From Cognatazoarcus halotolerans (GTDB lineage: Bacteria > Pseudomonadota > Gammaproteobacteria > Burkholderiales > Rhodocyclaceae): a DNA stretch of 64,000 nucleotides. The stretch spans positions 1 to 64,000 of the forward strand of contig NZ_WUAF01000001.1 in NCBI RefSeq assembly GCF_009800965.1, in the 5' to 3' direction. Made by a program: the position numbers and the translations under genes. Positions 3,537 to 28,634 of the stretch are shown one piece after another (the stretch's first letter is position 1; each line of letters begins with the position of its first letter). Under the pieces are notes generated by a model, which worked only from the letters and a program-made list of their open reading frames with translations, ran no database searches and was not told where the DNA came from.

Positions 3537-3929
3537 TCAGCGCTTCGAGAATTGCTTGCGGCGACGAGCTTTACGGAAGCCAACTTTCTTGCGCTCGACT
3601 TCACGGGCGTCGCGAGATACGAACCCCGCTTTCTTAAGCATGCCCTTCAGCTCAAGATCATAGTCGATCAGAGCCCGCGTGATGCCGTGACGAACAGCAC
3701 CGGCCTGGCCGGACTCACCACCGCCAATTACGTTGACCATCACATCGAAGGTTGCCTCGTGATTGGTCAGAGCGAGCGGTTGACGAACCACCATACGTCC
3801 CGTTTCACGCGAGAAAAACTCGTCGAGCGGCTTGCCATTCACAACGATGTTGCCCGAGCCCTGCTTGATAAAGACACGAGCAACCGCAGTCTTGCGGCGA
3901 CCCGTACCATAGTTGTAAGTCACAGCCAT
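3537..3929 (-). CDS. rpsI: 30S ribosomal protein S9
   Basis: Small-subunit ribosomal protein whose basic C-terminal tail reaches the P site. The family signature is clear: the N-terminal [13 protein letters not shown], the [19 protein letters not shown] core and the terminal [11 protein letters not shown]. The length of 130 residues is standard. It is the second gene of the rplM-rpsI operon, 12 bases after rplM, and is closed by an intrinsic terminator. Confidence 0.98.
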
Positions 3930-3941
3930 CGATAGCTCCTG

Positions 3942-4370
3942 TTAGATCTCGAGAACTTTGGGCTGCTGGGCAGCGTGCGGATGCTGAGTGCCTGCATAGC
4001 ACTTCATCTTCTTCAGCATCGCGTAACCAAGGGGGCCCTTCGGCAGCATGCCCTTGACGGCTTTCTCGAGAACACGAGCCGGAAAACGCTGCTGCAGCTT
4101 CGTAAAGTTGGTTTCATAGATACCGCCAGGATACCCGGTGTGACGGTAGTACTTCTTGTCCTGAGCCTTGGCACCAGTAACGCGGATCTTCTCTACGTTC
4201 ACCACGACAATATAGTCCCCGGTATCCACATGGGGGGTGTATTCAGGCTTGTGCTTGCCACGAAGGCGTCGTGCAACCTCGGCAGCAAGCCGACCAAGGA
4301 CTTTATCCGCCGCATCAACGACGAACCAGTCGCGCTTGACCTCGTGCGGCTTGGCAGAAAACGTTTTCAT
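3942..4370 (-). CDS. rplM: 50S ribosomal protein L13
   Basis: Early-assembling large-subunit ribosomal protein. The N-terminus [20 protein letters not shown] and the internal [16 protein letters not shown] and [13 protein letters not shown] segments are diagnostic, and 142 residues is the family length. An upstream in-frame extension of 70 codons is rejected because it runs through a promoter and lacks family similarity. It is the first gene of the rplM-rpsI operon, with a sigma70 promoter at 4427-4456. Confidence 0.98.
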
Positions 4371-4426
4371 CTCGTTCCTCGAACTTGACTGGCCTAGGGT
4401 GACGGCCTCTGAACAGAAAGCGGGCG

Positions 4427-4456
4427 ATACTACGAGAAATTGACCTACATTGTCAA
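4427..4456 (-). promoter_or_regulatory. Sigma70 promoter for rplM-rpsI
   Basis: On the minus strand TTGACA (4451-4456) and TAGTAT (4427-4432) are 18 bases apart. Transcription would start about 50 bases before the rplM ATG. Confidence 0.7.
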
Positions 4457-4483
4457 TCGGGATTCGCCAAAATCCCTGCATGC

Positions 4484-4512
4484 AAAAAAAACGCGGCTCG
4501 GGAAGAGCCGCG
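4484..4512 (-). terminator. Intrinsic terminator with no upstream gene
   Basis: CGCGGCTC (4492-4499) pairs with GAGCCGCG (4505-4512) around a five-base loop, and eight A on the plus strand (4484-4491) give an eight-U tail on the minus-strand transcript. No protein gene precedes it on the minus strand, which is the main reason to suspect a small RNA. It also insulates rplM from upstream transcription. Confidence 0.85.
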
Positions 4513-4577
4513 CTAAATCCACACCAAAGGAGGAGGGTGGAGGAGACACAGGATGGATCGAACAACGGATCCGGTTG
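4484..4577 (-). ncRNA. Candidate small RNA, CUCCU-rich
   Basis: An intergenic transcription unit on the minus strand, about 94 bases long. A promoter-like pair (TTGCCA at 4607-4612, 17-base spacer, GATAAT at 4584-4589) predicts a start near 4577. The end is a strong terminator (stem 4492-4512, then eight T). The body carries repeated CUCC/CCUCCU motifs (4530-4548 on the complement), which are complementary to Shine-Dalgarno sequences. No coding frame fits between promoter and terminator. The architecture resembles trans-acting sRNAs with anti-Shine-Dalgarno loops, but I do not recognise a named family. Expression is inferred. Confidence 0.5.
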
Positions 4578-4612
4578 CATCCGATTATCAAGAAAGCCCT
4601 CGCCAATGGCAA

Positions 4613-4851
4613 ATGGTTTTTGTGCGCCGCAGCAAAATTGTTTCTATCGACGAATCAATCTCTGCAATGAACTTCACGTGGGGGCACGTTCCAGACACGC
4701 GGACTCAATCACGCCTTACCCGAAAAACGGGGCAAGATGCCATCACCTCAAAACCGCTAAACTCTGCTGCTCGAATCGGGGCAACCTCACCGACCCGCTC
4801 CAGATCGCAACGCGCGCGCCTTCGGGTTTCGGAAACGTAACGGAGAATCAG
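4613..4851. other. Intergenic space before the OsmC-like gene
   Basis: Together with the rplM promoter and the candidate small RNA, this completes a roughly 480-base stretch (4371-4851) without a protein gene. Apart from a small hairpin near 4718-4731 I see no further element that I can name. The promoter of the OsmC-like gene should lie here. Confidence 0.5.
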
Positions 4852-5298
4852 ATGGATTGCACAGTCAAGTGGCTAGATGGAATGGCATTTATCGCCGAGA
4901 CGGGTACTGGCCACCTTGTCACAATGGACGGGGCTCCAGAAGCCGGCGGACGCAATCTTGCGCCACGTCCCATGGAATTGCTGTTGGCGGGAGCCGGGGG
5001 GTGCTCGGCCTTCGATGTAGTATTGATTCTGAAACGCGCTAGACAGGCAGTCACCGGTTGCGAAGTCCGCCTCGACGCCGAACGAGCGGATGCAGACCCC
5101 AAGGTGTTCACGCGCATCACCTTTCACTACACCGTCTCGGGCCACAATCTCAAACCGGAGGTGGTCAAACGTGCAATCGATCTTTCCGCAGAAAAGTACT
5201 GTTCGGCTTCGATCATGCTCAGCAAAACGGCCGAGATGTTGCACGAATGGACAATCGTCGAGACCGGTCCGCAAGCGGCAATCGAGTCAACCGACTGA
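4852..5298 (+). CDS. OsmC family protein (YhfA-like)
   Basis: Member of the OsmC/Ohr thiol-dependent peroxidase-related superfamily, probably cytoplasmic. The family layout is visible: LAPRPMELLLAGAGGCSAFDV contains the first conserved cysteine, and the second lies in SAEKYCSASIML. The length of 148 residues matches YhfA-type proteins. The ATG at 4852 follows a GGAG sequence; a longer reading frame begins far upstream but runs through the intergenic small-RNA region and is rejected. The real substrate of this subfamily is not known, so peroxide reduction is only a family-based suggestion. It is convergent with coq7. Confidence 0.85.
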   Translation: MDCTVKWLDGMAFIAETGTGHLVTMDGAPEAGGRNLAPRPMELLLAGAGGCSAFDVVLILKRARQAVTGCEVRLDAERADADPKVFTRITFHYTVSGHNLKPEVVKRAIDLSAEKYCSASIMLSKTAEMLHEWTIVETGPQAAIESTD

Positions 5299-5307
5299 TC
5301 CCTTTCA

Positions 5308-5928
5308 CTAAACCCAGTATGCGGTCCGGGTCATCACGGCGGACGCCGCACGCATGAGCTGCCTCACGGGCGTCGGCAGCTCATGGGCACCAAGCTTGAC
5401 CGCCGTTTCGGCATGCGCAACCTCATCACGCTGCATCTGATCGAGAATCGCCCGTGACTTTTTGTCGTCTGGTGACAGGCGCTCCAGATGCCCCTTGAGG
5501 TGAGCTTCGACCTGTCGCTCCGTTTCGGCCAAAAACCCGAGGCTCCAGCCATCCCCCATTTTCCCGGCCAAGGCTCCCAGACCAAATGACCCGGCGTACC
5601 ACAGGGGATTAAGCAGACTTTTGCGGCCTCCAAGCTCGGCAATCCGCTGCTCCGTCCATGCAAGGTGCTCCGTTTCCTCTGCTGCTGCCCCTTCCAGAGC
5701 CTTTCTCGTGCTCGGATCGCGCGAAGTCAGCGCCTGCCCCTGATACAGCGCCTGCGCACACACTTCACCACAGTGATTCACCCTCATGAGCGAGGCCGCG
5801 TCCTTCCTTGACCTTTCATCAAGGTCTGTCTCCGGAAAGTCTCGCCCTGGCACCGGGCGTATCGTCCGCGCGCTAGCAAAAACGGTCCTGAGTGCCTTGT
5901 CGAATTCGACAATCGCCCGATCAATCAT
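5308..5928 (-). CDS. coq7: Demethoxyubiquinone hydroxylase Coq7
   Basis: Di-iron monooxygenase of ubiquinone biosynthesis that adds the last ring hydroxyl using O2. The ferritin-like iron ligands are visible as [33 protein letters not shown] and [10 protein letters not shown]. The length of 206 residues fits the bacterial Coq7 type used by many betaproteobacteria in place of UbiF. It lies ten bases from the end of the convergent OsmC-like gene. It shows the organism makes ubiquinone aerobically, which fits a respiratory diazotroph. Confidence 0.93.
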
Positions 5929-26986: not shown

Positions 26987-28384
26987 TCAGGCGCTCAGCA
27001 CCGCACCACTGATGGGTTGCGCCCAGGGCGCCGGACGCCGCACCGCCTGCCATACCGGGCTCTCCATCGACAGCGCCATCTGGCGCGCCAGCTCGACCAT
27101 GCCGGAGTAGCCGGCGTAGGCAAACTCGCGCTCCTGATTGATATCGAGGAAGGGAATGCGGGCCTTCAGGGCGGTGTAGAGGTTGCGGCCGCCGGCGATC
27201 AGGATGTCCGCCCGGTATTCGCGGAACACCGACAGCAAGGCCTTGGGGCTGCCGTCGTCGATCATCTTGGTGTCCTCGCCCATCAGCTCGCGGATGCGCG
27301 CCTTGTCCTCCTCGGTGGATTTCTTGGTGCCGGTGGCGACCACCTTCATGCCGAGGTCCTGCAGCGCCGAAACGATCGACCAGCTCTTGACGCCGCCGGT
27401 GTAGAGCAGCACCCGACGCCCCCGGAGGCGCTCGCGCCACGGCGCCAGCGCGGCGTCGGCGCGCGCCGATTCGCGGGCGATCACCACCTCGGTGCGGGCG
27501 ATCAGGTCGGGGTCGCCGATCAGCCGGGCAAAGTCCCGCAGCGCGTTGTTCATGTCGAGCACGCCGTAGAAGCTGCCCTCGAAGTAAGGCACGCCGTGCT
27601 GTTCCTGCAGCTTGCGCGCCACGTTGAGTAGCGCCTTCGCGCACACCACCATGGTCACTTTGGCGCGGTGCATGGTCTGCACGTCGGCAAAGCGCGCGTC
27701 GCCCGAGAGGGTGCACAGCACCCGGTAGCCGAGTTCGTCGAGCAGCGGCAGCACATGCCAGAACTCGCCGGCGATGTTGTATTCGCCGATCAGGTTGATG
27801 TCCCAGGTCGGCCGCCCGTCGGGCCGCGGCCGGGCGGGCGCGGGCTCGCGGGTACCGACCACGTACTTGAACATCGCCTCGCCGGCCAGGCGGTTGCCGA
27901 GATTCTTGGTGCCGTAGAAGCCGGCCGCATCGACCGGCACCACCGGGGTACCCCAGCGCTCGGTGGCGGCACGGCAGGCGGCCTCCACGTCGTCGCCGAT
28001 CAGCGCGGTGACGCAGGTGTTGTAGACGAAGACCGCGGCCGGCGAGTAGGTGTCGATGGCCTGCTTGATGGCATGGAACAGGCGCTTCTCGCCGCGCCCC
28101 ATGATCACGTCGGTCTCCGACAGGTCGGTGGTCATGCCGATGCGGTAGAGCGCCGGCCCCGACGAGCGGGTGCCGCGGTTGTCCCATGAGGACCCTGCAC
28201 AGGCGATCGGACCGTGCACGATGTGGGCCACATCCGCAATCGGCAGGAGCGCGATCTGCGCACCGTCGAACGAACATCCGCCCGCCGTCGCACCCGGCTT
28301 GGGGCGCGCGCATCCGGATTTTTCCTTGGTGTTGTGGCTGCAGGCCGGCTCGTCGAGCAAGGCCTGGATGTCGCTGGCTTTCAT
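26987..28384 (-). CDS. nifE: FeMo-cofactor scaffold alpha subunit NifE
   Basis: Alpha subunit of NifEN, related to NifD, of 465 residues. Recognisable segments are [54 protein letters not shown] and [15 protein letters not shown], which contain the cluster-ligand cysteines. The start [15 protein letters not shown] follows a GGAG site and is preferred over an ATG 19 codons upstream, which lies inside the sigma54 promoter region. It is first in the long nifE operon that ends near 22872. Confidence 0.97.
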
Positions 28385-28414
28385 CGCGCTCTCCAGAGTT
28401 TCAAGCACACAACA

Positions 28415-28429
28415 GCAATTTGAGTGCCA
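28415..28429 (-). promoter_or_regulatory. Sigma54 promoter of the nifE operon
   Basis: On the minus strand TGGCACTCAAATTGC matches the -24/-12 consensus. The predicted start near 28404 lies about 20 bases before the nifE ATG. Confidence 0.93.
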
Positions 28430-28472
28430 GAACAAAACCATTTATTTTCAATGACTTGACAATTAATTGTCG

Positions 28473-28488: not shown

Positions 28489-28634
28489 ATTCGTGCATTG
28501 CAACAAAGCGTCGCGTGGCGCGCGCAGGCGACCGCACGGGTGCGAACCCCAGCGGGAAACGTTCGGAATGGATTCGTGTGCGCAGCGCGCATCGCCGCGC
28601 GCCGGCTTGGCCGACCAGAGCGGCGGCGGCCGGC

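Follow-up and report, generated by a model that had tools for sequence, protein, structure and literature searches.

The stretch of Cognatazoarcus halotolerans DNA that we analysed (64,000 nt, the window) encodes, upstream of rplM, a new member of a known family of small RNAs, RF02278 (Betaproteobacteria_toxic_sRNA, which covers the double-hairpin RNAs, bdhR1 and S17). We consider it likely that this RNA acts in trans by blocking translation and that its promoter is, in betaproteobacteria, under the proposed control of PhaR and PHB granules. With somewhat less confidence, we also favour a wider reading: an ancient sRNA, located at rplM before the beta/gamma split, would in betaproteobacteria have been put under the PHB-granule sensor PhaR, so that stored carbon broadly restrains the translation of mRNAs for carbon uptake and catabolism. 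Such wiring would account for the repressor postulated for the S17 promoter and for the induction of the Burkholderia double-hairpin RNAs, and would have arisen in parallel to PhaR and MmgR of alphaproteobacteria. Our own analysis provides the family membership, the covarying structure, the class-wide conservation, the place at rplM, a separate rplM promoter (by motif) and the link between operator and PhaR gene. The sRNA locus consists of the following features.

4619..4635, no strand assigned: predicted PhaR operator TTTGTGCGCCGCAGCAA, 0 mismatches to YTKNTGCRNYGCANMAR
4607..4612, minus strand: -35 box TTGCCA of the sRNA promoter (promoter scan)
4584..4589, minus strand: -10 box GATAAT of the sRNA promoter (promoter scan)
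4484..4577, minus strand: predicted primary transcript of ∼94 nt, start placed 7 nt past the -10 box
4555..4572, minus strand: small 5' hairpin GGAUC...GAUCC, within the part lost on processing (folding)
4484..4548, minus strand: predicted mature RNA of 65 nt, RF02278 match (Rfam scan and alignment)
4542..4548, minus strand: unpaired 5' end UGUCUCC, counterpart of S17 Site 1 (folding, alignment)
4518..4541, minus strand: hairpin 1 (folding, covariation check)
4526-4534, minus strand: loop of hairpin 1, exposing the second CU-rich element (Site 2; folding)
4484..4514, minus strand: terminator hairpin and U run (terminator scan, folding; all 8 modelled pairs covary)

The sequence-only reading had placed here an unannotated small RNA. 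The promoter it described, TTGCCA-N17-GATAAT on the minus strand, is present at 4612..4584 by direct reading as well as by the promoter scan, and is followed on that strand by a leader of ∼30 nt, UGUGUCUCCUCCACCCUCCUCCUUUGGUGUGGAUUUA, a G+C-rich hairpin and eight U. The CUCC motifs it had seen in the RNA body are four overlapping ones within UCUCCUCCACCCUCCUCC. Its run of eight T was found at 4491-4484, but its 8-bp stem was not, since the scan gives 10 pairs for the G+C-rich hairpin at 4514-4490. It was right that no protein gene lies ahead of the terminator. A 212-aa frame (3942-4580, minus strand) with its ATG at 4580 does run through the sRNA into rplM, and gene callers could mis-start rplM there, but the actual rplM start is at 4370. 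Promoter-like sites (2 in 3 kb, shuffle mean 0.9) and terminator-like sites (3 in 3 kb, shuffle mean 3.5) do not go beyond chance alone; the locus is clear of chance because of the Rfam match and the folding z-score.

RF02278 matches the window at 4483-4548 (minus strand) with 61 bits, above the gathering threshold of 50 bits (E 8e-10 for the window), and apart from it no family passes its threshold in the Rfam scan of the 64-kb window. Two hairpins, the second of them a Rho-independent terminator, and a CU-rich unpaired 5' end and loop are as in the family. Match and folding thus uphold the small RNA itself, with the adjustment that Rfam already contains the family. We count it as a new member because the pairing inference agrees with the published relatives; the proposal of a trans-acting RNA of ∼94 nt, with CCUCC elements directed against ribosome-binding sites, finds support in the work on these. 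The founding paper of the family is reportedly Kimelman 2012.

The 66-nt form folds with a z-score of -6.6, and 0/200 shuffles were equally stable. Among 87 aligned rplM-linked sequences, CUCCUCCA is invariant and 8/8 modelled pairs of the terminator helix vary on both sides; hairpin 1 hardly varies and therefore says little on covariation. For the whole structure, which is the consensus of an alignment not fitted to it, the covariation score was 0.484 (0.221 in shuffles). Pairs filled 94.8% of the cells; shuffled alignments reached 80.5%, and slid versions did not exceed 55.5%. The GUGU context at the 5' end of the predicted mature RNA resembles the published RNase E site of S17, and the RNA probably works as its processed 3' part of 65 nt.

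A close comparison is offered by B. cenocepacia. We take bdhR1 to be ncS27 and BCAL3348 to be rplM. The window RNA resembles ncS27/bdhR1 in sequence, in its two hairpins, CU-rich unpaired elements and terminator, and in length. The place is also much alike: ncS27 sits between BCAL3348a and BCAL3349, BCAL3348 being a ribosomal-protein gene (PMC5688073, available text). According to the accessible parts of the two Burkholderia papers (PMC4603805, PMC5688073), the family is named for toxicity on cloning in E. coli, ncS03, ncS05, ncS27 and ncS62 are expressed, predicted targets lie in carbon transport and metabolism, and overexpression of ncS27 leads to slower growth and its silencing to faster growth. 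ncS27 is described as a 92-nt primary RNA that is processed to a short form (PMC5688073). Four members are reported for H. seropedicae (PMC7011215). The window copy differs from the Burkholderia RF02278 RNAs in its predicted PhaR operator.

S17 of B. pertussis shares the core sequence and, according to the text at hand, lies next to coq7, is shortened to 67 nt by RNase E and needs Hfq (PMC11722255). It represses through pairing of Site 1, with Site 3 assisting, at or near ribosome-binding sites, as supported by compensatory mutations for one target (PMC11722255). Differences are its 190-nt form S17L, which carries a small ORF, and its control via the Bvg mode (PMC11722255). S17-type Bordetella loci also differ from the window copy in that rplM does not adjoin: in two of them (L064, L079), coq7 and osmC flank the copy and rplM is absent within the stretch. 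With coq7 and osmC beside the Bordetella copies, S17 appears to be the positional ortholog of the window copy, and the conservation of the rplM locus points to a common ancestral gene for S17 and ncS27.

When 4400-4700 was scanned permissively, NmsRb came up with 30 bits, along with a number of further CU-rich sRNA families, each below threshold. Neisseria NmsRb/RcoF1 (RF02877) aligns over the whole length, including both CU-rich elements and the terminator, but the score lies below the Rfam threshold of 52 bits, so that by Rfam's rule the window RNA does not belong to RF02877. For MmgR of Sinorhizobium (RF00519, alpha-r8) the window RNA reaches 18.6 of the 41 bits needed, so that by score it is not a member of RF00519 either. 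MmgR is a short sRNA repressed by PhaR (AniA), with a PhaR palindrome in its promoter; gel shifts showed S. meliloti PhaR bound to the mmgR promoter, and MmgR is repressed by it directly (PMC12542648, PMC8401924, as far as their available text goes). MmgR and the window RNA would thus be analogous in their control, and betaproteobacteria would use the same sensor as S. meliloti on an unrelated or distantly related RNA.

Three RF02278 copies score over threshold in the genome of C. halotolerans, namely the window copy and two tandem copies near C22:199200-199600. On one side of the tandem copies (L001, G000:C22:197697-200761, at 1501-1565 and 1835-1899, 334 nt apart) is a frame that by eye resembles YqaA/DedA, and on the other are yggT-like genes, likewise named by eye. 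A PhaR site precedes the core of the first copy by 33 nt, and the second copy has one with 3 mismatches. A possible fourth, weak copy (L308, G000:C26:37906-37962, minus strand; 41 bits with model R1, see below) has UGUCUCCCUCCCUCUCC and a terminator. All 6/6 genomes of the genus, our own counted, have an RF02278 match. At E <= 0.001, matches were obtained in 34/41 relatives, in 188/300 genomes of the order (114 over threshold) and in 83/274 genomes of the class (3 over threshold, all within the order). The sub-threshold loci that we inspected have CUCCUCCA[UC]CCUCCUUUGGUGG, a G+C hairpin and a U run in common, with small departures. Some genomes contain 8-9 matches (G280, G581), which indicates that the family can expand strongly.

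We also used a model of our own, R1, which was built from rplM-linked sequences alone (89 non-redundant ones minus 2 truncated ones, that is 87) and may favour the rplM-linked copy over paralogs. It matched 109/274 genomes of the class and 29/299 drawn from the phylum, and a pattern scan found at least 119 stretches, including Thiothrix, Thiocapsa, Sedimenticola, Arenicella and many betaproteobacteria. Judged by sequence, the family extends across the Gammaproteobacteria below the Rfam threshold. The toxic sRNAs are stated to occur only in betaproteobacteria (PMC7011215, available part). Weak R1 matches of ∼31-36 bits in family f161 (L240-L247) have a similar UUAUCUCCUC element and a terminator. 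These we take to look like Pseudomonas PrrF; their resemblance to the sRNA is probably convergent, and because of them class-level matches below 37 bits were excluded from the PhaR-site scan.

The neighbourhood in the window is composed as follows.

3537..3929, minus strand: rpsI (Ribosomal_S9; domain search)
3942..4370, minus strand: rplM (Ribosomal_L13), conserved downstream neighbour (domain search, synteny)
4427..4432, minus strand: -10 box TAGTAT of rplM's own promoter (promoter scan; kept in relatives)
4451..4456, minus strand: -35 box TTGACA of rplM's own promoter (promoter scan; kept in relatives)
4852..5298, plus strand: OsmC-like gene, divergent neighbour (domain search, synteny)
5308..5928, minus strand: coq7 (domain search, synteny)

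The rplM product of 142 aa is a Ribosomal_L13 protein (159.7 bits). Among the best matches outside the order (one per genome; nine positive genomes there, scoring at most 33.7 bits, are omitted from the count), 69/97 are followed on the same strand by rplM at a distance of 90-691 nt, 26 have no rplM downstream and 2 are cut by contig ends. Matches below 45 bits follow the same rule (11/20), and with Rfam's own model rplM lies directly downstream in 22/27. Among the matches listed in the pattern scan, rplM was found in 64 of 119 stretches. On the far side of the sRNA, osmC and coq7 are present in many loci; in many relatives the names of the neighbours rest on tblastn with the window proteins. 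By way of the conserved rplM locus, the family can be followed through Gammaproteobacteria, in which the Rfam threshold conceals it. The lack of a conserved promoter and loops in relatives had been named as an outcome that would speak against the small RNA; we looked at both, and both are kept. A promoter scoring at least 9/12 lies upstream of the sRNA in 25/77 beta loci (expected 3.1) and 57/75 gamma-type loci (expected 10.7). Here, as in the gap and operator scans below, the two groups are told apart not by taxonomy but by what precedes CUCC, which is GU in the beta group and for the most part GA in the gamma group, so that Chitiniphilus (L098) counts as gamma.

The conserved same-strand place upstream of rplM would also suit a terminated leader (attenuator) of rplM-rpsI, with one promoter for both and terminator read-through setting the supply of ribosomal protein. 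A class of short 5'UTRs with attenuation in B. cenocepacia includes the ribosomal-protein gene BCAL3348 (PMC5688073, available text). However, a σ70-type promoter of at least 9/12 is present between terminator and rplM in 75/77 beta gaps (expected 2.9). In the gamma-type gaps such a promoter occurs in 25/75 (expected 8.2), and CTTG-N19..21-TANNNT, followed by a G+C-rich stretch, in 62/77 (expected 2.8). A promoter shared with the gene, as expected for an rplM leader, is therefore not what these gaps contain. Since a promoter of rplM's own nearly always lies between the sRNA terminator and the start codon, the sRNA is a separate unit, and we rejected the attenuator role on this ground. Copies far from rplM, including the two tandem ones, also argue against it, as does the invariance of the loop letters in addition to the terminator. 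We regard an attenuator as very improbable; by motif and with predicted start sites, sRNA and rplM are separate units. In the gamma-type rplM promoters, the -35 boxes are of the TTGT type and the discriminators are rich in G+C (76%), a combination expected of growth-controlled ribosomal promoters.

In the upstream regions of the sRNA copies we noticed TTGCNNYGCANMA, which is the core of YTKNTGCRNYGCANMAR, the palindrome given for PhaR of R. eutropha (PMC12849132, available text). At 4619-4635 the window has a perfect 17-bp match to this palindrome, the published consensus of which rests on few sites. Its centre is located 15 nt ahead of the first -35 base and ∼50 nt before the predicted start, so that both repression and activation would be possible; PhaR of R. 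eutropha is described to do both (PMC12849132). We scanned -200 to -10 of the copies for this consensus, with the core TGCRNYGCA and up to 3 mismatches, omitting exact duplicates and loci with too short an upstream stretch. A site was found in 61/75 rplM-linked beta copies (shuffle 1.07; downstream control 0/75) and 43/66 other beta copies (shuffle 0.8; downstream control 2/64). The corresponding numbers for gamma copies were 4/75 rplM-linked (shuffle 0.67; downstream control 1/75) and 7/39 others (shuffle 0.3; downstream control 1/38). The distance from palindrome centre to -35 start in the 104 beta sites was exactly -5 in 48 (null 4.8), a class that arises in part by construction, since TTG is contributed by the palindrome itself, and +13..+16 in 28 (null 0.8), a class for which this does not hold and to which the window belongs. 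Other spacings were seen in 5 (null 14.1), and 23 had no scored promoter (null 84.5).

PhaR itself is encoded in the genome of C. halotolerans (PF07879, E 1.5e-30, G000:C14:144027-144206). Phasin genes are classical PhaR targets, and 6/7 of those in the same genome have PhaR-type sites upstream, at most 160 nt from the domain start, one only at 3 mismatches. A narrower 13-letter pattern occurs 51 times in this genome, compared to 8 times for the reversed control. We then compared the presence of site and PhaR gene in two genome sets, A and B, which overlap in part (identical PhaR coordinates, e.g. G948/G572) and in which related genomes are not independent. PHB_acc_N (PF07879) was detected in 55/61 beta genomes of set A, and among the 57 with scanned upstream regions a site was present in 40/51 with PhaR and 0/6 without (p 3e-4). 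The beta genomes of set A that lack PhaR are spread over several families, and one genus provides a contrasting pair, G567 without PhaR and site and G447 with both. For gamma genomes of set A, PhaR was over threshold in 19/80, and a site was found in 7/17 scanned genomes with PhaR and 1/60 without (p 6e-5). In set B, PhaR was found in 53/53 beta genomes with a site (these 53 stand against 62 site-bearing beta loci) and 16/20 without (p 0.004), and in 2/2 gamma-type genomes with a site and 14/25 without. No site was seen in the copies examined of 11/51 (set A) and 16/69 (set B) beta genomes with PhaR. One genome (G211) has a site and no detected PhaR; it is 86% complete, and a congener has PhaR. 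Since the gamma-type rplM-linked orthologs mostly lack the site even where PhaR is encoded, PhaR cannot be the general regulator of the family.

The palindrome might instead serve the divergent osmC, with which the intergenic region is shared, or another regulator with a PhaR-like site, and the sRNA would then be a normal RF02278 RNA. The PhaR consensus, which is short and derives from few sites (PMC12849132, available text), leaves some room for this. It is at odds with the fixed spacing to the sRNA -35 box, with the palindrome at the 43/66 other beta copies, including tandem ones without osmC, with the same palindrome at the phasin genes and with its co-occurrence with the PhaR gene, and we judge it unlikely. 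Still less probable, and the least probable of the readings considered here, is a growth-inhibiting toxin curbed by an antitoxin or by low expression. The family name and the slower growth on ncS27 overexpression (PMC4603805, PMC5688073) would fit; S17 overexpression, however, left exponential growth of E. coli BL21 unimpaired (PMC11722255, accessible part), the segment showed no antitoxin partner, and the growth effect is explained by broad pairing with ribosome-binding sites.

PhaR control of a trans-acting RF02278 RNA would also bear on relatives with a known promoter. Both Bordetella genomes tested (G881, G882) have a PhaR gene. The operator overlaps, in the loci of Bordetella and Achromobacter, with a promoter that reads TTGCAT/TTGCAA-17-TACTAT or nearly so. 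The published S17 promoter has the -35 box TTGCAT and the -10 box TACTAT with a 17-bp spacer, and its authors postulate an unnamed repressor (PMC11722255, available text). For the Burkholderia RNAs, control is called unknown, and a supplementary figure gives a common upstream motif for three members (PMC5688073); this motif may be the PhaR palindrome. The predicted operator is thus a concrete candidate for the open control of these RNAs. The main texts of both papers (PMC11722255, PMC5688073), in their available parts, leave PhaR and PHB unmentioned. Our literature search, which covered mostly open-access papers, found no paper that joins the family to PhaR, PHB or rplM; as far as it goes, both the PhaR operator and the broad conservation of the place at rplM are new.

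For the pairing, we compared ribosome-binding sites and in-gene windows of 182 heuristically called genes from the window's own genome. A pairing energy of -12 kcal/mol with the 5' element is reached by 24 of the former and 3 of the latter. Complementarity to ribosome-binding sites is generic. We rejected rplM and osmC as the sRNA's own targets, as their pairing energies are average, and found no support for phasins as special targets: 5/7 phasin ribosome-binding sites pair with the 5' element more weakly than -9 kcal/mol, the best reaching -10.6. GGAGACA occurs in 6/148 beta and 0/156 gamma GGAG sites (p 0.013, uncorrected for four motifs and from crude gene calling), and an earlier counting of GGAG flanks gave a weaker contrast between the groups. 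This is a hint that the letters before CUCC track the flanks of ribosome-binding sites genome-wide.

The proposed mechanism can be outlined as follows. The σ70-type promoter (4612-4584) would start the ∼94-nt transcript, which would end at its own terminator ahead of rplM's promoter and probably be trimmed by RNase E to the 65-nt double-hairpin RNA. The unpaired 5' end and the first loop (UCUCC/CUCCUCC) would pair with the purine-rich ribosome-binding sites found on numerous mRNAs and thereby block translation. RNase E processing, Hfq, pairing at ribosome-binding sites and carbon-related targets are taken over from the papers on relatives. In betaproteobacteria, PhaR would bind the palindrome, which adjoins the -35 box or covers it, and come off once PHB granules form; we infer both this binding and its sign. 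Through the RNA, the state of carbon storage would then reach translation, and uptake and breakdown of carbon compounds would be damped during storage. If so, carbon storage would be tied to post-transcriptional control in many betaproteobacteria, including industrial PHB producers. A second PhaR-type palindrome, with 1 mismatch, is located at 28490-28506 of the window, ∼50 nt upstream of a 484-aa frame (26987-28441, minus strand) that by eye looks like nifE, which points to a possible link between PHB state and nitrogen fixation.
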